Positions 38,368-64,000 of a DNA stretch of 64,000 nucleotides are shown here, one piece after another. The notes beneath the pieces were generated by a model that saw only the letters and a list, made by a program, of their open reading frames with translations, was not told the origin of the DNA and did no database searches. Position 1 is the stretch's first letter. Each line of letters starts with the position of its first letter. The position numbers were made by a program, and so were the translations under genes. The stretch covers positions 157,140-221,139 of the forward strand of contig JAKBMB010000020.1 of assembly GCA_021831785.1 (NCBI GenBank), given 5' to 3'. The stretch is from Deltaproteobacteria bacterium. Lineage in GTDB: Bacteria > Desulfobacterota > Binatia > Binatales > Binataceae.

Positions 38368-38465
38368 ATCGACGCTCTGTGGATAGAAGTGCCTGTCAGA
38401 GAAGGACATTCATTGACAGCCTGCTGATTTTCGATGATCATCAATGTCATCGAAATCCGTTCTCA

Positions 38466-38542
38466 TACGGACACGGCACGGACACAGAAGTCCCGATGGG
38501 AAGCGGGTTTTGCTTAAGAAGTGCGTTCTTGTACGGACATGG
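38466..38542 (+). repeat. Further 11-bp repeat copies reaching the integrase ribosome-binding site
   Basis: TACGGACACGG and CACGGACACAG are again in tandem (38466-38487). A fifth copy, TACGGACATGG (38532-38542), touches the GGAGGAGG ribosome-binding site of the integrase. The second doublet is 120 bp from the first. Binding by the integrase and autoregulation are inferred. Confidence 0.5.
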
Positions 38543-38551
38543 AGGAGGACG

Positions 38552-39748
38552 ATGGGGCAGCGGATTACTGAGCGATTTATCAAGTCTCTGGAGCCGCCAG
38601 AGGCAGGAAATCGGGTCTATTACGACACCGATATCGTCGGTTTCGGGGCTCGGATCACGGTGGCTGGCGTTGTGTCTTTCGTACTCAATTACTACGCGCG
38701 AGGACGCGAGCGCCGCTACACGATCGGTCGGTATCCGGAACTGAACGCGACCGCCGCTCGCGAAGAAGCCCTGGCGCTTCGCGAGATTATCAGGCAGGGC
38801 GGCGACCCCATGGAGCGCAAGCAGAACGACCGCGCCGCGCCGACAATCGCCGATCTGTACAACGACTACATCGAGCGTCACGCGAAGATTCATCTCAGGC
38901 CGAACACGATCCGTTCGGCCGAGGGCATGGCCACCAAGCATATCTTGCCGAAGATCGGTCACATAAAAGTCGCGGACCTGACACGGCGGGATGTCGAAGA
39001 GCTCCACAATTCTGTCAAGGATGCGCCATATCAGGCCAACCGAGTGCGAGCGCTGCTCAGCAAGATGATGAACCTGGCAAAGGCGTGGGAGTGGCGCGAC
39101 GATAATCCGTGCGAGGGAGTTCCGAAGTTCCGCGAAGAGAAGCGCGAGCGTTGGCTGTCCACGCAAGAGATCGAGCGGCTCTGCGACGCGCTCGACAAGT
39201 ACGCGAACCAATTGGTCGCCAACGCGATCAGGTTGATGCTGCTGACCGGTGCGCGAAAGAGCGAAGCGCTTACTGCGCGATGGGAAGACTTCAATATCGA
39301 GCTCGGCGTTTGGACGAAGCCGAGTCATCACACGAAGCAGAAGCGGACGGAGCACGTGCCGCTGAGCGCGCCTGCCGTTCAGCTCCTGGCCTCGATGAAA
39401 GAAAGGGCCGACGGTAACGCCCACCTTTTCCCTGGCGATGTGGCAGAAGAACCCCTCAACGAGATCAAGTGGGCTTGGGCGAAGCTCTGCAAGCAGGCGA
39501 AGATCGAGAACGTGCGAATCCATGATCTGCGGCACACCTACGCGAGCCACCTGGTCTCGTCGGGGATGTCACTGCCGATCGTCGGTCGCCTGCTCGGACA
39601 CACGCAGCCGCAGACCACGGCGCGTTACGCGCACTTGGCCGACGATCCACTGCGTCAGGCGACGAATCGCTTCGCTTCAATTGTCGCTGCCGCTCGATCC
39701 CGGAAGCGGGCCGAAGTCGTTCCGCTCCGTAGCGATCGTGAGGCGTGA
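38552..39748 (+). CDS. Tyrosine recombinase, island integrase (phage P4 type)
   Basis: 398 residues from ATG 38552 after GGAGGAGG. N-terminal DUF4102-like arm-binding domain (YYDTDIVGFGARITVAG), central SAM-like domain, and C-terminal catalytic domain with Arg in LTGARKSEAL (~235), HDLRHTYAS (H324, R327), LLGHTQ (H350) and the nucleophile in ARYAHL (Y359). It catalyses integration and excision at the tRNA-Thr site 220 bp upstream. The set is complete, so it is probably active. Its 3' end overlaps a convergent HTH gene by 72 bp. Confidence 0.93.
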   Translation: MGQRITERFIKSLEPPEAGNRVYYDTDIVGFGARITVAGVVSFVLNYYARGRERRYTIGRYPELNATAAREEALALREIIRQGGDPMERKQNDRAAPTIADLYNDYIERHAKIHLRPNTIRSAEGMATKHILPKIGHIKVADLTRRDVEELHNSVKDAPYQANRVRALLSKMMNLAKAWEWRDDNPCEGVPKFREEKRERWLSTQEIERLCDALDKYANQLVANAIRLMLLTGARKSEALTARWEDFNIELGVWTKPSHHTKQKRTEHVPLSAPAVQLLASMKERADGNAHLFPGDVAEEPLNEIKWAWAKLCKQAKIENVRIHDLRHTYASHLVSSGMSLPIVGRLLGHTQPQTTARYAHLADDPLRQATNRFASIVAAARSRKRAEVVPLRSDREA

Positions 39749-54192: not shown

Positions 54193-54613
54193 GTGAGGTC
54201 CGATTCGAAGAGCCACGCGAAATTTCGAGGCGGCCTCGAAATTTCCATCGTTTCGCTGGAGGACATGTACGGCGCGAAGCTGGTTGCGGCGATGGACAGG
54301 CAAGCATCCACGTGATCTGTTCGACATGATGCAGCTCTTTGCGCACGAAGGAATCACGGCCGGACTCCGCCGTGCTTTCGTGGTTTACCTGGCGAGCCAC
54401 AACCGGCCGGTGCATGAGGTTTTGTTTCCGGCACTGCGCGATATCCGAAACGAGTACGAGAACAACTTTCAAGGCATGACCGAAGAACCGGTCGAGCTCG
54501 AAGCGTTGCTCGCCGCGCGCGATCGGATGGTGCGCGAACTCCAAGGGCTCAGCACAGCTGAGCGTCGCTTTCTGCTCTCATTGGCGCCGCAGACCCTGAA
54601 TGCTCGCTGCTGA
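54193..54613 (+). pseudogene. AbiEii/AbiGii nucleotidyltransferase toxin, C-terminal fragment with frameshift
   Basis: The first frame reads GLEISIVSLEDMYGAKLVAAMDRQ and then runs into a stop. The next frame resumes exactly with HPRDLFDMMQLFAHEGITAG and continues to LLSLAPQ. KLVAAMDRQ-HPRDLFD is the usual AbiEii joint, so one extra base near 54302 broke the gene. The N-terminal nucleotidyltransferase active site is absent altogether. Type IV toxin remnant. Confidence 0.78.
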
Positions 54614-54628
54614 GAGTGGAACATATTC

Positions 54629-54730
54629 GATAATTGTTGCCGCCTCCTGCCTCTTAACCGCGACTTGTAGGCTTTCAGATAGCATTAATCGAGTATTGTT
54701 GACATCTCGCGACAATTATCCGAGACTTAT
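54629..54730 (+). promoter_or_regulatory. Candidate promoter with inverted-repeat operator before the AbiEi-Fic gene
   Basis: GATAATTGT (54629-54637) and ACAATTATC (54712-54720) are perfect inverted 9-mers. TTGACA (54699-54704) is a consensus -35 box; the second 9-mer falls between it and a weak -10 (around 54723-54730). The layout suits a repressor site, possibly bound by the AbiEi-like winged helix. Confidence 0.4.
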
Positions 54731-54770
54731 TGCCGAGCGAGAAGCCCCACTATTCGAGAGAAGTTGGCCC

Positions 54771-56528
54771 ATGCCCTACGAATCTGAACTCATCTTTTCG
54801 ACCGCACGGACCGCAAAAGCCATTAAGCGGCAAGAGTGCTCCGGAAGGCTCCGCCGCGTCGCGCGAGGAATCTACACGACCAATTTGGGCGACGACCTTG
54901 GCATGGTGGTGAGGAGAAATGCGGAAGACATTATCGATCACCTTTTTCCGGGAGCGGTGGTGTCTCATCGAAGCGCATTCGAGTTCGGCGATCGCGCGAA
55001 TCGTCCTGAGCACCTCTTTCTAACCCTACCCAAGGCTCCCCGGCTCTTGCGTCTGCCCGGCCTGACGATTCACGTGCTGCGCGGGCCGGGGCCATCCGCC
55101 AACGATCCTCCCTACCGGAAATTTTATCTTTCATCGCGAGAGCGCGCGTTTCTGGAAAACCTGAGTCCCGGACGCGAACGCGGCGGCGCGCGCAAGAATT
55201 TGCCGCGAAAGGAACTCGAACGGCGGCTTGTCGAGGGTAGAGGCCTTGAGACACTCGACACCTACTTGAACGGCATCCGTGATCGCGCCCGTGGTGAGGC
55301 GGAGAAGCTTGGCTTCGATAAGGAATTCACCACGCTGAGCGACATTATCGGAGCGGTCCTGGGATCGGGCGGCGCGAAGGCGGCGCTTTCACCGAGCGAG
55401 ATCGGCCAAGCTCGCGCGATGCCTTACGATGGCGGCCGGTTGCGCCTCTTCGAGGCCCTGGTGCTCGCTCTGCGAAATGTGGAATCCCCATCGTGGATGA
55501 AGCCGCCGCCGATTGCGCAAGTTCAGGCGGTTTTGGCGAACAGCACCTTTTACGAAGCGTATTTCTCCAATTACATCGAAGGCACCAAGTTCGACATCGA
55601 TGTAGCCGAGGCGATGGTCTTCGATAATGTCGAGCCGGCGGCGCGGCCGGAGGATCAACGCGACGTGCGCCATACCTACGCGATGCTTTCCGACCTGCGG
55701 GAGATGCGCCGCGTGCCGTCTAGTCCTGATGAACTGATCGACATCCTGAAAGCGCGCCACAACCTGATCATGAGGCATCGGCCTCAGAATCTGCCTGGCG
55801 AGTTCAAGCGCCAACCAAACCGGGCTGGCGAGACTAAGTTCGTTGAACCGGAACTGGTTGAGGGCACGCTCCGGCAAGCCTTTCGGATTTATGCCGATCG
55901 GCTTGCTACTCCGCTTGCGCGTGCCATCTTCATGAGCGTGGCGATTGCTGAAATTCATCCGTTTACCGACGGCAACGGACGGATTTCACGGGCGATGATG
56001 AACGCCGAGTTGACGTTCGCCAATCAGTGCCGCGTCATCGTTCCAACTGGCGGACGCGATGACTATCTTCTCGCGCTTAGAGCTTTCTCGCGTCAGGAGC
56101 GGTCCGATCCAATCGTCACGGTGCTGGCGCGCTGTCAGGCGCTCACTTCGATGGTGATTTGGGCGCCGCGCCCTTTGGCCAGAGCGATCCTGCGCGAGTT
56201 GGGAACCTTCAATGAACCTCCAGACTCGCATCTGTTCGTGCCGGAGTCGGCCTTGTCGCCGCGGCTACAGGCGGCGGCCAGACGGGCTGAGGCGGCCGGC
56301 GCGGAGTTGGAAGCCAAGTCCTGGGATCCGACAGCACGAGCGCGCGTGTGCGCCGAGTTTTCCGATGCGGCTTCTGAATATGCGGAGTTGATGCCGGACT
56401 TTCCCGGCGCGCGAAGGGCTGTGCTCGCCGGCACGCAAGAACTGATTGATCGCGGGATGAAGGAATTAGCACCGCTGGCCGAAAAGATGAAAACACATCC
56501 GCAGGATGAGCAGCGCGGACCTCGTTGA
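54771..56528 (+). CDS. AbiEi-like antitoxin domain fused to Fic protein
   Basis: 585 residues from ATG 54771. The N-terminal ~190 residues resemble AbiEi type IV antitoxins: winged helix (SGRLRRVARGIYTTNL), then VVSHRSAFEFGDRANRPEHL and LPGLTIHVLRGPG. Next comes a linker, and then a Fic domain with inhibitory motif SNYIEGTKFD and catalytic HPFTDGNGRISRAMM. AMPylation or a related transfer is expected; the fused antitoxin-like domain may regulate transcription or activity. A longer frame from 54600 is not supported by homology. It directly follows a broken AbiEii gene. Confidence 0.85.
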   Translation: MPYESELIFSTARTAKAIKRQECSGRLRRVARGIYTTNLGDDLGMVVRRNAEDIIDHLFPGAVVSHRSAFEFGDRANRPEHLFLTLPKAPRLLRLPGLTIHVLRGPGPSANDPPYRKFYLSSRERAFLENLSPGRERGGARKNLPRKELERRLVEGRGLETLDTYLNGIRDRARGEAEKLGFDKEFTTLSDIIGAVLGSGGAKAALSPSEIGQARAMPYDGGRLRLFEALVLALRNVESPSWMKPPPIAQVQAVLANSTFYEAYFSNYIEGTKFDIDVAEAMVFDNVEPAARPEDQRDVRHTYAMLSDLREMRRVPSSPDELIDILKARHNLIMRHRPQNLPGEFKRQPNRAGETKFVEPELVEGTLRQAFRIYADRLATPLARAIFMSVAIAEIHPFTDGNGRISRAMMNAELTFANQCRVIVPTGGRDDYLLALRAFSRQERSDPIVTVLARCQALTSMVIWAPRPLARAILRELGTFNEPPDSHLFVPESALSPRLQAAARRAEAAGAELEAKSWDPTARARVCAEFSDAASEYAELMPDFPGARRAVLAGTQELIDRGMKELAPLAEKMKTHPQDEQRGPR

Positions 56529-56631: not shown

Positions 56632-57522
56632 CTAATCGGAGCAGGGCGTCCGGCTGAGAACGTAATCACACGCCCGTTGCGCCTGAGTGGCGGCGTGAAC
56701 GATGAATTTCCGATCTTCGCGGAGTTTGGTCTTAAGCCATCCGGCGATGTACGCGGCGGAATTGTCGATCGTGCGATTCTCGATGCCCGCGATTCCGCAC
56801 AAATAGGCGGCTGTCATCTCCGCCACAACTTCCTCGGCGCTGTAAACAGGGGAGCCGAACGGCGCCGCTTCCTTCAGCGAATCGCGATTTAGCCGTTTCT
56901 CATGGCCAGTGGCATGCCCACAAGCCTCATGGAACATGGTACACCAGAACTCATGTGCGCTTTCGAATAGTCCCCGTGGCGGCATCGTTACTCGGTCGGT
57001 GGCGGGCGAATAGAAAGCCTTGTCGCCGGCGTAAACGATCTCGGGCGGGTTGGGCATTTCGCAGAGAATCTTCTCGCAAGCCTCGATGGGATCAAGTTGG
57101 CGTTGTTCGGGTAGCGCCAGTTTCTCAGTGACCGATACCGGCAGATCGCATTGCTCTGTGTTGAACGCTGAGTAGTAGCGTAATACAAACCGGCGCTTCT
57201 TCTGCCCTTCGCTGTGCTCCTGGGTTTCGGGCTCGCCCGCTTTCACTTCGACGCCTCCGACGTAGACACGCCAGAAGACCACGGGCGTTGCCTTCTCGCC
57301 TTTGCGGACTGATCCGCCAAGCTCGTTGATCTGCCGAAAGGTCGCCCAATGCGGCGAGGTGTAACCCTGCATGGTGAGCAGCCACACATTGACGCCGCGA
57401 TATAGCTTCGTCGAGACGAGGTTACGTGGTGCGCCAATGCTTCGCCACGGCTTGTGCCACGGAACCGTGCCCGCTTCCAACTTTTCGATGATCCGATCGG
57501 TGATTATCTGGTAAACGTCCAT
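56632..57522 (-). CDS. ArdC-like antirestriction / zincin-domain protein
   Basis: 296 residues. N-terminal ssDNA-binding domain typical of ArdC (VYQIITDRIIEKLEAGTVPW, HKPWRSIGAPRNLVS, YRGVNVWLL, WATFRQINELGGSVRKGEKA). The C-terminal metallopeptidase-like domain has MFHEACGHATGHEKRLNR. The usual motif is HExxH; here a Gly makes it HEACGH. ArdC proteins protect incoming plasmid DNA from restriction. SSB and a small zinc protein lie upstream on the same strand, a conjugative-element type of module. Confidence 0.85.
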   Translation of the reverse strand: MDVYQIITDRIIEKLEAGTVPWHKPWRSIGAPRNLVSTKLYRGVNVWLLTMQGYTSPHWATFRQINELGGSVRKGEKATPVVFWRVYVGGVEVKAGEPETQEHSEGQKKRRFVLRYYSAFNTEQCDLPVSVTEKLALPEQRQLDPIEACEKILCEMPNPPEIVYAGDKAFYSPATDRVTMPPRGLFESAHEFWCTMFHEACGHATGHEKRLNRDSLKEAAPFGSPVYSAEEVVAEMTAAYLCGIAGIENRTIDNSAAYIAGWLKTKLREDRKFIVHAATQAQRACDYVLSRTPCSD

Positions 57523-57598: not shown

Positions 57599-57979
57599 CT
57601 AGAATGGAACTTCGTCGCCGGCTTTGGCCTTCGGCGCACTTCCGTTCACGCGGTTTCCGAGCATCCGCAGTTGCAGCGCCACAATTTCGGTCCGGTAGCG
57701 CGGGCCGCTCCCGTCTTTAGCCTGGTATTGGCGGGTGCGGAGTCTACCCTCGACATAGACTTGCCGCCCCTTCGAAAGCAGGCGCTGGCAGTTGTCCGCG
57801 AGCTTCCCGAAGGCGACCACGCGATGCCATTCGGTCCGCTCCTGGCGTTCGCCGTTGCGATCCGTGAATCGCGCCTTGGTTGCCACGCTCAGATTCGCCA
57901 CGCTCTGGCCTGACGGCAGTGCGCGAACCTCGGGATCACGGCCAAGATTTCCGATAACAATTGCCTTGTTGACTGACAT
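57599..57979 (-). CDS. ssb: Single-stranded DNA-binding protein
   Basis: 126 residues, OB fold: NKAIVIGNLGRDPEVRALPS, VANLSVATKARF, EWHRVVAFGKLADNCQRLLSKG (quoted in part: TEWHRVVAFGKLADN), VYVEGRLRTRQYQ. The acidic C-terminal tip DEVPF is present, so it can bind partner proteins. It is short in linker compared with chromosomal SSB, which fits a mobile-element copy. Flanked by the zinc-protein and ArdC-like genes. Confidence 0.93.
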   Translation of the reverse strand: MSVNKAIVIGNLGRDPEVRALPSGQSVANLSVATKARFTDRNGERQERTEWHRVVAFGKLADNCQRLLSKGRQVYVEGRLRTRQYQAKDGSGPRYRTEIVALQLRMLGNRVNGSAPKAKAGDEVPF

Positions 57980-58552: not shown

Positions 58553-60577
58553 GTGGAAGATAAAACGATCAGCCCGGCAGTGCTGGCGGGTGCACCAGTC
58601 AATTCGTTTTATGGAGCGCGAGTCGCCGAGTTCATGGCTGAGGACCCCAGGGCTGTTGTTGGTGCACTCACGACTCGTGCTGCCCTCGAATATCGCGGCA
58701 ACCAGCCGGAACAAGCTCGCGCGTGGCAACGTGAGGTCGAACTCCTAAGTCGCGCGTTCAACGTTTTGACAGGGTCGGGCGAGTGGGGCCTATTGCTTGA
58801 GTATTCCCTGAGACGCTTGGGGCGCCGCCCGGATGCGGTCATTTTAGCCCCTGGCGTGATCATAGTGGTCGAGTTCAAAATCGGTGCAGAGAGACACGCT
58901 GCGCACTATGTGCAACAAGCGGAGGACTATGCGCTCTGCATCCGGGACTTTCACGATGGCTCAGGTCGTTTTGTCTTGGTGCCGATCGTGTGTGCCGAAC
59001 TGGCGCCTGCAGTTATTGCAACACAACCTTCGGTTGTAGAAGCAGTAGCCTCGCCTATACTAGCCAACGCACACGACCTGCCCGATGCGCTTCGAATGGC
59101 AGTCTCGACAGGGACGAGAGAAGCGGAAACCGTGTCATGGCGTGCGTTTGACTCCGGCCCGTACAATCCGACCCCCACGATCGTCGACGCCGCCAGGGCT
59201 GTCTATGCCGGACATTCGGTTGCAGAGATCGGGCGCAGCGATGCGGATGGCATGGCGCTTCAGCGCGCAGCGGAACGGCTGCGCCACTGGGTCCTTGAAG
59301 CGCGACGAAGCGGAGAGCACATAGTGTGCCTCGTGTCGGGGACGCCTGGAGCGGGAAAGTCTCTCTTGGGGCTCAACTTGGTCCTGGCAGACGGGGCGGG
59401 CCGAGTTGCCGGCGAGCCGGCGGTTATGCTCACAGGCAATCGTCCGCTTGTGCAGGTCCTCAGAGGCGCTCTCATCGCAGATTCGCGCGCGCGCGGAGAC
59501 AATGGAGGCGCAAGCAGAGCGGTTGAGGGCGCTCTGCAGACCTTGCTCGGGTACCTCCGACAACACGCCGAAGAATCCTCCGGTACGCCGCCCGAGCATG
59601 TGCTGGTTTTCGATGAGGCGCAGCGCGCTTGGGATGAGGAGACGGGGCAGAAGCTTCTCCAACGCCGCCGCTCTGAGCCGGAGCTATTCTTGGAGATCCT
59701 GCATCGTTTGCCGTGGGCTTGCCTCGTGTGCCTAGTTGGGGAGGGACAGGAAATTAACCGCGGAGAGGGTGGCATGGCTCTCTGGGGAGAAGCGCTCGCG
59801 GTTGAGGATCGCGCGGCCCGCCGATGGCGCGTGGTCGGGTCGCCGCTAGCATCCGCGACCGGCATTTCAATGCAGTTGGATGCCTCCCTGCATCTAGCGA
59901 ATGGAGTAAGGGCGTACCGGAATCCGCGTTTTGGGGAATGGGTGGAGGCGCTCCTGGCGGGCAACATCGAAGGCGCTCGAAGACTGAGTCGGCACATGTC
60001 AAATCCCGCGGCGCAAATCACTCGCGATGTGAAGATGCTGAAGGAGTGGTTGCGGTTGCGACAAAGGGGCGGCAGGCGGGGTGGACTGGTCGTGAGCTCG
60101 GGCGCGACGCGGCTCGTCGCGGAGGGCGTCCCAGCACCTCCGATGTCGAACGATCTAAAGGTAATAGAGAATTGGTTCTTGAAGTCGCGGCCGGATTTTC
60201 GAGGCTCCGATTCGTTGGAAGTGCCGCTGAGCGAGTTTGGTTGCCAAGGACTTGAGCTTGACTACGTGGGCCTCTGCTGGGGAGGCGACCTGATATGGTT
60301 AGCCGAGTCGGCGAAGTGGATGCCGCGGCAAATGAGAGCGCCGTCCTGGCAAGCAGTGCGGCGCCCGGAAAGCGCGCGCTACCGGATAAATGCCTATCGG
60401 GTTCTTCTGACGCGAGCGCGCGAAGGGACTTGCATCTATGTTCCACGCGGTGCCGCAGATGATCCAACGCGGTCGCCTGCAGAGTTGGATGGAATTGCCG
60501 GAGCTCTGTTGCAGGCCGGCTGCATCGATGTGGCGGAGAGCGAAGGACGTGCTGACGTCCGGTTACTCGACGGATAG
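58553..60577 (+). CDS. PD-(D/E)XK nuclease fused to DUF2075 (Schlafen-group-like) helicase
   Basis: 674 residues, GTG start after GGAAGGAG. The N-terminal ~200 residues carry a nuclease core, RRPDAVILAPGVIIVVEFKI: D94, E107 and K109 form D-x12-ExK. A P-loop helicase domain of the DUF2075 kind follows: Walker A SGTPGAGKSLLGLNL (~262-276), HVLVFDEAQRAWD (Walker B ~350-361), and AYRVLLTRAREGTCIYVP near the end (motif VI). DUF2075 helicases occur in defence islands. A role in cutting invading DNA or RNA is inferred. The next gene starts 244 bp downstream in the same orientation. Confidence 0.88.
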   Translation: MEDKTISPAVLAGAPVNSFYGARVAEFMAEDPRAVVGALTTRAALEYRGNQPEQARAWQREVELLSRAFNVLTGSGEWGLLLEYSLRRLGRRPDAVILAPGVIIVVEFKIGAERHAAHYVQQAEDYALCIRDFHDGSGRFVLVPIVCAELAPAVIATQPSVVEAVASPILANAHDLPDALRMAVSTGTREAETVSWRAFDSGPYNPTPTIVDAARAVYAGHSVAEIGRSDADGMALQRAAERLRHWVLEARRSGEHIVCLVSGTPGAGKSLLGLNLVLADGAGRVAGEPAVMLTGNRPLVQVLRGALIADSRARGDNGGASRAVEGALQTLLGYLRQHAEESSGTPPEHVLVFDEAQRAWDEETGQKLLQRRRSEPELFLEILHRLPWACLVCLVGEGQEINRGEGGMALWGEALAVEDRAARRWRVVGSPLASATGISMQLDASLHLANGVRAYRNPRFGEWVEALLAGNIEGARRLSRHMSNPAAQITRDVKMLKEWLRLRQRGGRRGGLVVSSGATRLVAEGVPAPPMSNDLKVIENWFLKSRPDFRGSDSLEVPLSEFGCQGLELDYVGLCWGGDLIWLAESAKWMPRQMRAPSWQAVRRPESARYRINAYRVLLTRAREGTCIYVPRGAADDPTRSPAELDGIAGALLQAGCIDVAESEGRADVRLLDG

Positions 60578-60821
60578 TCGCATGTACTAGGGCGAGCCGA
60601 ACGAAGTTGGACCTGCGATTACGGATTCGTTTGCAGCTGGTGAGGAACTGGCCCCAGCATTCGGAGCCGGAGCCTCAGGGGACTGTGGCACGGTAACGTG
60701 GCGGTAGATAGACTCCGATATGGCCAACCGGGCCCTTGGCCTAGGTCTGGTTAAGATTTCAGTATGCACCGGTCGATCTGGGAACCCGCGGTGGCACCAT
60801 CGAGCGACTGGAGTGGACCTT

Positions 60822-63800
60822 ATGTTCGAATATAGTTGCTTTCTGCATCCACAACACAAAGGCGCTTCTCTGGATTCTCGCTGTCCGGAATGTAACCAGC
60901 CGTATGGATTTCCGTTGGAGGCAGCACACCTTCCTCGCACGATTAACGGAAAACGCGTGGTTGAAGGCCTGAATCGTGGGTTTTATGGTGCAGTATTCAA
61001 GATGCAGCACCCCAGAACCGGCCGGTTCTATGCAGTTAAAGTGATTCCCGTACAGACCTACGCGCCTAAGGAAGAAGGAGGGTATAGTAAATCGTTCGAG
61101 AGGGAGTGGAGGCTCCATCTCGACCTTTCGTCTGCTCCAGTGGTCGCACGATTAGAGGATCAGGGTGAAAATGATATCAATTTCGGACAATGCTCGATCC
61201 CCTGCTACTGGATGGAAATGGAGTTCGTCGATGGAAGCGCCCTATCTCAGGTGATCAAGAGTGGCCCCACGTCTCCGCGACAAGCAGCGCAAATCGCCTG
61301 GGATCTGCTCGACGTGATTGAAGCTCTCCAGCGGCGCGGGCAACATCACAACGACTTCCATGGCGGCAACATTATTGTAACTCGGCTGAGCAGAGCGGAG
61401 TCGCGACTATCTGCAATAGATCCGGAAACAGGAATGAAGGTTCTTGACCTAGGGTCGGCCGCCCAGGAAACGCGATCATCTGACGAGCGACTCGGGGACA
61501 CGCACTGGGTCGCAAAGCACATTCTCGAATTGTTGGAATCGTACGAACGTACAAATATCGGTGCTGACCCTGCTCTCCTACGTACTTGCGCTCAACTAAG
61601 ACGGGTAGCCGAACACTATTATGGTGCGGACAAACAACGCCGGCCTTCACCGAGCGACATGAAGGAGATGGTGCGAGCAGCGTACTATTATGCGCAGAGA
61701 CCGTTTGATGTACCTGTTCGCCTGCCATCTATTTCGACGCATTACAATGCTCGGACTTTGCCTCCCTCTTTTGCACCTGAATTGCTTTACGATCCCAGTG
61801 GAAGGTGGGCAGGGCGGTTGCAAGGACCGGGCCCACAGCTTCTGTTCGGAATGCGCGGCTGCGGGAAAACTATGCTTCTTCGCTCGCTTGAGTGGCCTGC
61901 ACGCCTCAGGGCGCGGAAGACCAGCGGGCCTGCTTACGAAACGCGCCAGGAGGTAGCACAGCGAGTAAGTGGTGAAACCTTCCTGGGAGTTTTTGTCTCT
62001 TGCAGTGCACTGTTGCGAGGGCCGAGACCGGAGTTGATTGACAGGCCCGTTCTGCGGACGTTCCTGGCATTTGCACGCGAGATCGTCAGAGATGTGGAAG
62101 CCTGTGCATTCACCGAAATCGGGAGTGTCAATTACTCGGAACTGCAGGGATTCGCGGAAGTGGTTCATCGGGCTGTACCCTGGTTCGCGGTCCCGTCTAA
62201 CCCTGCTGATGTGTGGGAATTATCCAGAGCAATTGCTCAGGCTCTTAGCCGGGCCTGGGATGGCGACATCAGCAATGATCTGCCGCCGCTATTGGTGTTT
62301 GAAGAACTCTGCCGGTCGACACGGCGACTAGTCGACATCTGGGCAAACAAAGTACTCTTGTTCCTTCTAGACGATGTGTCTACTCGTGTGTTGCCCGTCC
62401 AGAATGTCAGCGAGTTATTGAGCCAGCTCTGCATCCATAGTCCATTATTTGGATTCAAAGTCTCGACTGAAAATCAGACCTTGGAGCTTCGCACCGAGGG
62501 TGGTGAAGTTGCTCGAGAGGGGCGAGATTTCGAACCCTTTGACCTCGGCTTGGAAGTGGTCGCTCATCTTGGTGGGCACGAGGGAGCAAAGTTCATAGCG
62601 AGTATTCTTCAGCGTCGTGCCGCGATCACTGAAGGCGCACCTCGAAACCCAGTCAAGGAGATCCTCGGCTCGCAAAGTCTCGAAACTCTCGCTGGTAATC
62701 TTCGGAGCGGGTTGGCAGATCCCGTGTACTGGGGGTTAGAGAGTCTCGCCGGTATGTGTGTCGGCGACATTGGGGATGTGCTGCAACTCTACGAAACCAT
62801 TTTGCAAAGAGGTGCGGAAAAACCATTCCCAATCTCTTCGGCGATCCAGCACAAAGCCGCGATCGAGATCGCGGAAGTAAAGTTGCGCGCCTTGGCCATT
62901 AGAGAGGAGTGGCTTTATTCACATGCTGTCGCTTTCGCACAAGCGTCCCATCGTGAGTTGAGAAGGAGTTCCAGTCGTCTGAGGCAACACACACGTATTC
63001 ACGTAAACATCACAGAGCAAGATGCGCCGACGCTGTTTCCTCTTCTTCTTAAAATGGTTGACGCAGGGGTGTTTGTTTTCATCGGTGGTCAAAGCCGATC
63101 CAAAGCGGGTGGCGGGCAGTCGCGTTTACAGTTCAAGCTCGCTTATAGAAAGATGTTGGGGCTTCCCTATCGCATGCCGCTTAGCGACCGAGACAGATTT
63201 GAGCCCGAGAACCCGAAGGAGCTCCGTGACTGGATTGAACATCCCGCTGCCGAGAGGCTACGTTGGGGCAAGCTACCTGAGGAAGACCGAGGCTCGGATG
63301 GCCAGACCGAAAACGGTCGACAAAGTCTGTCGCACGAGGCAGAACAGCAGATTATGCAGGACATCCCCAAATCGCCGCAGCCACGAGGTGAGAACGGGGA
63401 GCTGCCAGAGGCGCATACGCTATTTTCCGTCCAGACAATGTTGGCGAGCGAGATCTCGGCGGCCCGTGTTTCGCTGGAGGACAAACACGTAATTGCCGCG
63501 TTCGGATTCGAAGATCGTAGCCCCGGGTCTTGGCGCAATCTACTTGCATTCGGGTGCCCGCGCAGAGCGACGCTTGTGCAGTATCCGAACGAAGGGAAGA
63601 AGAAGGAGATCGAAGCTGTGCTGCGAGATCGAGGCGTGTCGTATGACATAACATTAACAGGGTCTTACGGTCACGGGGATCTTGTCCGTCAACTAATCGG
63701 TAGCTGCGATGCCGCGGAGGCGGTGCTGATAGATACTACGTCCTTGACGAAAGCACTAATTTACGAACTGGTGACATTGGCGCTCGTTGAGCGAGGTGAT

Positions 63801-63890
63801 GTGTGGGTGTTGCACACCTGCGCTGATGAATATTTCCCTCCGGGGGACGAACTTCGACGGGTCGTAGACAAATTATTGATACCTGCATAA
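60822..63890 (+). CDS. Zinc ribbon-protein kinase-ORC/CDC6-like ATPase-CARF-like fusion protein
   Basis: 1022 residues from ATG 60822 (GGAG eight bases upstream). Domains in order: a Cys-rich ribbon (~6-30, RCPECNQPYG); a Ser/Thr-kinase-like domain (~45-290) with glycine loop GLNRGFYGAVF, AVKVIP (K73), catalytic HNDFHGGNIIV (D178, N183) and metal DLG (D209); a P-loop ATPase (~320-700) with Walker A LLFGMRGCGKTMLLRSL (343-350) and Walker B VLLFLLDDVST (511-518), of the ORC/CDC6 type; then a C-terminal Rossmann-like domain (~886-1022) with AAFGFEDRSPGSW and VLIDTTSLTKALIYEL, resembling CARF motifs. All kinase residues needed for catalysis are present. A signalling defence protein is inferred. 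Confidence 0.85.
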   Translation: MFEYSCFLHPQHKGASLDSRCPECNQPYGFPLEAAHLPRTINGKRVVEGLNRGFYGAVFKMQHPRTGRFYAVKVIPVQTYAPKEEGGYSKSFEREWRLHLDLSSAPVVARLEDQGENDINFGQCSIPCYWMEMEFVDGSALSQVIKSGPTSPRQAAQIAWDLLDVIEALQRRGQHHNDFHGGNIIVTRLSRAESRLSAIDPETGMKVLDLGSAAQETRSSDERLGDTHWVAKHILELLESYERTNIGADPALLRTCAQLRRVAEHYYGADKQRRPSPSDMKEMVRAAYYYAQRPFDVPVRLPSISTHYNARTLPPSFAPELLYDPSGRWAGRLQGPGPQLLFGMRGCGKTMLLRSLEWPARLRARKTSGPAYETRQEVAQRVSGETFLGVFVSCSALLRGPRPELIDRPVLRTFLAFAREIVRDVEACAFTEIGSVNYSELQGFAEVVHRAVPWFAVPSNPADVWELSRAIAQALSRAWDGDISNDLPPLLVFEELCRSTRRLVDIWANKVLLFLLDDVSTRVLPVQNVSELLSQLCIHSPLFGFKVSTENQTLELRTEGGEVAREGRDFEPFDLGLEVVAHLGGHEGAKFIASILQRRAAITEGAPRNPVKEILGSQSLETLAGNLRSGLADPVYWGLESLAGMCVGDIGDVLQLYETILQRGAEKPFPISSAIQHKAAIEIAEVKLRALAIREEWLYSHAVAFAQASHRELRRSSSRLRQHTRIHVNITEQDAPTLFPLLLKMVDAGVFVFIGGQSRSKAGGGQSRLQFKLAYRKMLGLPYRMPLSDRDRFEPENPKELRDWIEHPAAERLRWGKLPEEDRGSDGQTENGRQSLSHEAEQQIMQDIPKSPQPRGENGELPEAHTLFSVQTMLASEISAARVSLEDKHVIAAFGFEDRSPGSWRNLLAFGCPRRATLVQYPNEGKKKEIEAVLRDRGVSYDITLTGSYGHGDLVRQLIGSCDAAEAVLIDTTSLTKALIYELVTLALVERGDVWVLHTCADEYFPPGDELRRVVDKLLIPA

Positions 63891-63926
63891 ATAATGTCCT
63901 AAGATTCCAGCCGGCAGAGGTGGAAG

Positions 63927-64000
63927 ATGCGGCCGGTGGGAAGTGGGGAGAGGTTGGAGCAGCGGCGCCAGCGGGCGATCGCGTTGCTCAAGGAAGGGCA
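63927..64000 (+). CDS. Start of IS630-type transposase (cut by window edge)
   Basis: From ATG 63927 the frame reads MRPVGSGERLEQRRQRAIAL and then LKEG to the edge, like the N-terminal HTH of IS630-family transposases (xRPxGxxExLExRRxRA). Only 24 codons are visible, so the assignment is tentative. Confidence 0.45.
   Translation, partial: MRPVGSGERLEQRRQRAIALLKEG

Follow-up and report, generated by a model that had tools for sequence, protein, structure and literature searches.

A CARF-kinase-ATPase gene interrupted by an insertion sequence in a Binataceae genome, and a phosphorylase-like gene that recurs beside its relatives

Introduction

The DNA analysed here, referred to as the window, is a stretch of 64,000 nucleotides from a Deltaproteobacteria bacterium of the Binataceae family (assembly GCA_021831785.1, contig JAKBMB010000020.1, C25 below). 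At its end lies a gene that fuses a zinc ribbon, a Ser/Thr protein kinase, an ORC/CDC6-like AAA+ ATPase and a CARF sensor. This fusion belongs to the CARF6 (CARF-STK-AAA) family and is interrupted in this genome by an insertion sequence (IS). In bacteria and archaea, the gene that recurs beside members of the family encodes a relative of pyrimidine nucleoside phosphorylase (PyNP) that has lost part of its active site. The identity of the fusion, its break and its neighbour are held with high confidence. With a probability of about 0.55, the fusion and the phosphorylase-like gene act together in defence, as a module of signalling protein and effector that is linked to cytosine-5 DNA methylation systems.

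To our knowledge, the combination of a CARF sensor with a protein kinase has had no known ligand or target since it was described in 2014. An earlier note on the window, made from the sequence alone, proposed that the fusion and an adjacent nuclease-helicase gene act as one two-gene system. Its observation is partly confirmed and its interpretation partly supported.

A phosphorylase-like gene recurs beside the fusion

A scan of genome contigs with a single sequence found no relatives of the fusion. A scan with an alignment profile recovered 59 fusion-family loci from bacteria and archaea, a sample that is not exhaustive and in which every locus holds one of two peptide patterns. Clustering of the neighbouring open reading frames (ORFs) revealed that 43 of the 59 loci have a gene of about 400 aa. 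Profile searching likewise placed a phosphorylase-like gene beside the fusion in 43/59. In 41 loci it lies directly upstream, in the same orientation as the fusion; of the other two, one is upstream of a split fusion (L065) and one is convergent with it (L047). The gap to the fusion is within 10 nt for 30 of the 41 directly upstream partners, with ORFs called from the first possible start and overlaps being upper bounds. Among loci with at least 5 kb of sequence on both sides, the partner is present in 26 of 39.

A profile of 41 partner sequences matches the PyNP 1brw (E 9.6e-46). An Arg-Ser-Lys triad (R143, S158, K162), which we take to be the pyrimidine base site of PyNP, is kept in all 41, and the Lys-His pair of the DKHSTGG motif, presumably the phosphate site, is replaced in all of them. 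Because the pair is kept in 0/41 sequences, the partner is not filed as a phosphorylase, in spite of its profile match and its triad. A PADLOC scan of two members gave no match.

The association also holds at the level of whole genomes. The partner subfamily scores at least 308 bits in 36 of 50 fusion-bearing genomes, with one copy each (one of them split over two contigs), a count that is partly given by construction, as the same genes built the profile; all other matches in these genomes reach at most 152 bits. The 14 genomes whose fusion loci lack the partner have no subfamily copy anywhere. Across 193 related genomes, a full-score partner occurs only in the genome of the window, and the other matches are at or below 122 bits save one of intermediate score. 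Over 30 loci, the distances of fusion and partner correlate with r 0.85, those of fusion and a neighbouring methyltransferase with r 0.58, and those of partner and methyltransferase with r 0.47 (each 0/2000 permutations), values that include shared species descent.

This methyltransferase belongs to a cluster of C5 cytosine methyltransferases found within the flanks of 45/59 loci. A Vsr-like cluster is found in 21/59. One member of each cluster was checked by Pfam.

Searches elsewhere gave little. Viral contigs yielded no copy of the phosphorylase-like gene, and 22 plasmid records had weak matches (20-32% identity), which are ordinary phosphorylases where annotated. Among the top matches in the open-access literature, which did not include Makarova 2020, no paper ties a thymidine phosphorylase to CARF or to this kinase, and the main text of Makarova 2014 (PMC4012209) does not contain the word "phosphorylase".

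Two side observations concern the same enzyme and its position. Another phosphorylase-like relative, also lacking the Lys-His pair, belongs to a three-gene set at L088:8195-11492 (genome G196) with an unclassified protein resembling a P-loop ATPase and an IrrE/M78 peptidase; the set is possibly a second defence system that uses this enzyme. At two partner-less loci the upstream proteins (L022:8748-9992 and L034:6728-7981) look alike, and the former matches putAbiC (E 8.7e-16). Partner swapping is possible at these loci, since the two proteins occupy the upstream position of the partner.

Domain content of the fusion and its predicted sensor

The fusion ORF occupies positions 60720-63890 (1056 aa). 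Residues are numbered here from its first codon; the earlier note started at Met35 (1022 aa), so that 34 must be subtracted to obtain its numbers, and Met35 at 60822 is likely the true start. The PADLOC model CARF6--CARF_STK_AAA (PDLC01925) matches this ORF with E 1.5e-200 over model positions 2-1007 of 1187. A second part of the gene, on another contig of this genome (C20), covers 1016-1185, and the intact relative P0002 covers 2-1185. The two parts together, like P0002, thus give a full-length match to the family. The zinc ribbon, the kinase residues and an AAA+ domain with an arginine in its P-loop are all present.

The earlier note was right about the kinase and the ATPase. Pfam recognises the kinase (E 1.5e-13) and the ORC-CDC6-like ATPase (PF24389, E 2.1e-17). 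Among the 113 homologues longer than 1150 aa, kinase K107 is kept in 112 and D212, N217 and D243 in all. ATPase residues R379, K383 (Walker), T384 and D551 (Walker B) are invariant in this set, as are E931 and D1005 of the CARF lobe. R379 sits within the P-loop GMRGCGKT, and Makarova 2014 (PMC4012209) names such an arginine as a feature of the CARF-STK-AAA family. The order of kinase, ATPase and CARF, which had been thought undescribed, is therefore that of a family whose architecture was described in 2014; both this architecture and the family of the adjoining gene, PDC-S41, are already known. The features are listed in Table 1.

Table 1. Features at the end of the window
Feature	Position	Strand	Basis
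PDC-S41 candidate defence gene, PD-(D/E)XK nuclease and SLFN-g3 helicase	58553..60577	+	PADLOC, Pfam, conserved residues
Native 5' portion (first 1052 codons) of the CARF6-type gene for Zn ribbon, kinase, ORC-CDC6 ATPase and CARF	60720..63875	+	PADLOC PDLC01925
Zn-ribbon cysteines C40, C55, C58	60837..60893	+	Conserved in 108, 110 and 110 of 113
Ser/Thr protein kinase domain (K107, D212, N217, D243)	60969..61526	+	Pfam, residues
ORC/CDC6-like AAA+ ATPase, best-matching stretch only	61734..62015	+	Pfam PF24389
First CARF lobe (GFEDRS, DTTSLTK), predicted	63489..63875	+	Conserved residues, tandem-CARF model of an intact relative
Left end of IS630-type IS (TA target) interrupting the fusion; the contig ends there	63876..64000	+	Copies, repeats, TA, ORFs of a relative

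A profile of the sensor had no match among PDB sequences even at E 10, and fold comparison alone gave matches. In structural models of intact relatives the sensor is predicted to be a tandem CARF whose second CARF-like lobe is C-terminal. The modelled sensor has a Rossmann-like CARF fold closest to those of Can1, Can2, Csm6 and Card1, and is most like Can1. The two lobes of one chain are thus predicted to form a Can1-like ligand pocket. The CARF resemblance noted at the end of the window gene agrees with these models, and the domain concerned is predicted to be only the first of two lobes. The 2014 description also names a winged helix-turn-helix domain, and what the models show as the C-terminal part is the second CARF-like lobe. 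For a full-length model the matches listed are kinases, and the middle region (about 320-860 of relative P0011) is not covered by them.

Interruption of the fusion by an insertion sequence

The fusion gene is real, and its catalytic residues are conserved, but it is not the complete gene that had been assumed. Full-length homologues have about 1200 aa, against 1056 codons in the window. The ORF stops 110 nt before the end of contig C25, which is also the end of the window, and its residues 1053-1056 and stop codon are IS sequence. A search of the genome with P0002 located its residues 1-1020 on C25 at 72% identity. The 187 residues that the window lacks (P0002 1018-1204, 74% identity) were found at the end of contig C20 (C20:86023-86577). 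Of the last 127 bases of the window, 125 recur at 100% identity at the ends of two further contigs, where the flanking sequence differs. Beyond the missing half, C20 ends in the opposite terminus of this repeat, and contig C13 starts with that terminus as well. The termini are inverted and pair at 24/28 positions, and TA flanks all five IS ends observed.

In another genome the IS end has a 91% relative, which continues into two ORFs that are in different frames and carry HTH_33 and DDE_3, domains of IS630-type transposases. The TA target, the inverted repeats and the transposase domains all agree with this type, the transposase being seen only in this relative, whose contig ends in the second ORF. 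Given the split matches to P0002, the shared repeat termini, the TA flanks and the relative with transposase domains, an IS630-type element sits in the fusion gene; C25 and C20 are neighbours, and the element was not assembled through. It is predicted from the models to fall between the two CARF lobes, leaving the second on C20.

An assembly artefact at a repeat, with the gene intact in the organism, would also let the break coincide with contig ends and with a repeat that was not assembled through. Such an artefact is highly improbable, as the two halves of the gene break off precisely at IS termini flanked by TA. The identical truncated protein is also found, as one sequence, in 8 public contigs, the longest of which (329746 bases) is longer than C25, though these are perhaps re-assemblies of one sample.

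Judging from the sequence, the IS should leave the kinase-ATPase without a complete sensor, and the module is therefore likely dead or deregulated in this genome. A degenerate CARF6-type fragment is present at L014:5589-6245 on contig C13, beside ORFs that are presumably a truncated thyX-like gene and an integrase-like gene, both named by resemblance.

In this genome the partner gene is also on C20 (L010:16793-17989), where it is convergent with the tail of the fusion, 19 nt away, and ends a run of Druantia-like genes.

The adjacent nuclease-helicase gene

The earlier note correctly placed two adjacent plus-strand genes on integrase-bearing DNA: the ORFs of 674 and 1056 aa are 142 bp apart, and a phage-integrase gene is present at 38444-39748. 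It was also correct in joining a PD-(D/E)XK nuclease to a DUF2075 helicase in the upstream gene. D94, E107 and K109 of the nuclease are identical in 112/112 homologues longer than 600 aa, Pfam PF09848 (SLFN-g3, DUF2075-type helicase) matches with E 2.7e-62, and the helicase residues are K269 (Walker) and D354/E355. PADLOC assigns the gene to PDC-S41 (E 1.9e-191, residues 18-660 of 674, model positions 4-653 of 657), so that a nearly full-length profile match and the residues of both enzymes agree.

The proposal that this gene and the fusion form one defence system is supported by their adjacency on the same strand in this genome and by the presence of both families in PADLOC. It is barely credible, since a PDC-S41 neighbour is found in 0/59 fusion loci from other genomes; the closest fusion relatives (72% and 63%) are on public contigs of 5.5 kb, and their neighbours are not in these counts. 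Among 193 relatives the fusion occurs in 1 and PDC-S41 in 9, the genome of the window being counted in both. The earlier note had itself named fusion homologues without this neighbour as grounds for abandoning the pairing, and the neighbourhood search found just that in these samples. The two-gene pairing is rejected, and PDC-S41 is an independent neighbour of the fusion here rather than a conserved partner.

Proposed mechanism and alternatives

If the fusion and the phosphorylase-like gene form a module, infection or the failure of a methylation safeguard would give rise to a nucleotide ligand. Binding of this ligand to the CARF pair would free the ORC/CDC6 ATPase and switch on the kinase, which in turn would activate the partner. 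Lacking the phosphate-site Lys-His, the partner might act as a nucleosidase and deplete pyrimidine nucleosides or nucleotides, so that phage growth would be halted. Action of the partner on pyrimidine nucleosides or nucleotides is a tentative step, proposed because of the analogy with Detocs and CBASS Cap17. In Detocs, a phosphorylase-fold enzyme has turned nucleosidase. In CBASS, Cap17, an MTA/SAH phosphorylase, is required for protection (PMC9122588). The complete scheme, a methylation-linked two-gene immune system of bacteria and archaea in which a tandem-CARF kinase-ATPase senses a nucleotide and unleashes an ex-phosphorylase that destroys the pyrimidine nucleotide pool, apparently mostly independently of type III CRISPR, is speculative and less likely than not to hold.

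Several observations weigh against such a module, in addition to the circularity and shared descent mentioned above. The partner is missing from 16/59 loci; one of these (L060) starts inside the fusion, and in the other 15, which have more than 6 kb upstream, it is truly absent. These loci lie on scattered branches of the fusion tree, which suggests repeated loss or replacement. The intermediate copy in a related genome (262 bits) has no fusion on its 16.6 kb contig, and a fusion copy on a Loktanella plasmid has no annotated phosphorylase nearby. In the genome of the window, the partner may serve the Druantia-like genes, since it is convergent with the fusion and ends their run. The ligand, the kinase target and the chemistry of the enzyme are guesses. 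No SMODS nucleotidyltransferase was found in this genome, where other cyclase families were not tried, and Cas10 gave 0 matches. Finally, the partner may already appear in the main classification of CARF proteins (Makarova 2020).

The main rival to an effector role is a second-messenger role, after Kaur 2020, in which the partner makes, trims or erases the CARF ligand and the kinase is the sole output, phosphorylating a host or phage protein. This has a real but minor chance of being correct. In its favour, it is just these two genes that are closely coupled and co-vary, and in Kaur 2020 (PMC7159879) phosphorylase-superfamily proteins of other conflict systems are predicted to release a base for a second messenger. 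With 16/59 fusions lacking it, the partner is not the sole source of a ligand. Its conserved triad, presumably pyrimidine-binding, would suit an enzyme of ligand metabolism but sits poorly with cyclic oligoadenylates. The type III CARF effectors covered by a review (PMC9704534) have cyclic oligoadenylates as their ligands. Somewhat less probable again is that the fusion has no module of its own and regulates neighbouring restriction-modification genes (nuclease or methyltransferase) by phosphorylation: the restriction genes near it vary from locus to locus, and it co-varies less with the methyltransferase than with the partner.

A role in type III CRISPR-Cas, with the fusion as an ancillary effector that is switched on by a cyclic oligoadenylate from Cas10, would fit the predicted sensor fold. 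Of 51 fusion-bearing genomes, 9 pass the family cut-off for the Cas10 palm, two of them with strong matches (E 3.6e-34 and 3.1e-29). The other passing matches score only 26.8-34.1 bits, a level that an Escherichia coli control also reaches, and may be other cyclase-type domains. On this survey, and with no Cas10 match in the genome of the window, such a role is very unlikely. SMODS cyclases were considered as a source of the ligand; matches (E <= 0.001) occur in 11/51 fusion-bearing genomes and, as stated above, none in the genome of the window.

The preferred reading, a methylation-linked module of fusion and partner, ties a CARF-kinase to one conserved relative of a nucleoside enzyme, which lacks a specific active-site pair and has a recurrent cytosine methyltransferase in its vicinity, and the question of ligand and target thereby becomes an enzyme assay. 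Because the locus in the window is broken, experiments call for a pair that is intact; Arthrobacter sp. MA-N2 (L018) has one.

Surrounding genes

The only PF00145 match in the 3.68 Mb genome is the C5 methyltransferase that C20 carries at a distance of about 11 kb from the partner gene. An HhH-GPD glycosylase (L010:5882-6655) directly follows it and perhaps takes the place of Vsr. A full-length AbiEi/AbiEii pair (L010:2446-4223) is also next to the methyltransferase. The C20 genes adjoining the partner match PADLOC DruE4, DruL4 and DruK, and the gene trio of Druantia type IV is thus found together. Druantia was considered as a general partner of the fusion and rejected: in a blastp comparison of six C20 proteins with the ORFs of the 59 loci, only relatives of the C5 methyltransferase and one helicase match of 44 residues were found.

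C20 carries conjugation genes as well, with VirD4-, VirB11- and VirB4-like products (L089:9211-16117). As the missing half of the fusion is on this contig too, the island probably represents an integrative conjugative element. In the window, an ArdC-type antirestriction protein (56632-57522, minus strand) and a single-strand binding protein (57599-57979, minus strand) are encoded upstream of both large ORFs, which also lie downstream of the integrase gene. Genes of these two kinds are often found on conjugative elements. An AbiEii-like fragment (54284-54610, plus strand) overlaps an ORF of 642 aa (54600-56528, plus strand) with a weakly AbiEi-like N-terminus and a Fic domain, and the region resembles an AbiE pair that has been rearranged and joined to Fic. 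A scan of the window for tRNA and Rfam families gave no match.

Comparison with known systems

The window fusion shares the zinc ribbon, Ser/Thr kinase, AAA+ domain with P-loop arginine and CARF of the CARF6 CARF-STK-AAA family; the copy here is split by an IS, whereas intact members are modelled with a tandem CARF pair. The gene upstream shows no difference from PADLOC candidate PDC-S41, and Druantia type IV (DruL4/DruE4/DruK) is present next to the partner on C20. The closest fold to the predicted sensor is Can1 (presumably structure 6sce), a two-CARF nuclease activated by the cyclic oligoadenylate cOA4. The output of Can1 is a nuclease, in contrast to the kinase-ATPase of the fusion, whose genome has no Cas10 match.

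With pyrimidine-nucleoside and thymidine phosphorylases, the partner shares the profile match and the base-site triad. It differs from them in lacking the Lys-His pair, and the three members scanned fall far under every NCBIfam cut-off. CBASS with Cap17 (PMC9122588) and Detocs likewise combine a signalling system with a phosphorylase-fold effector, but use another, purine-type enzyme family and another sensor and signal than the pair described here.

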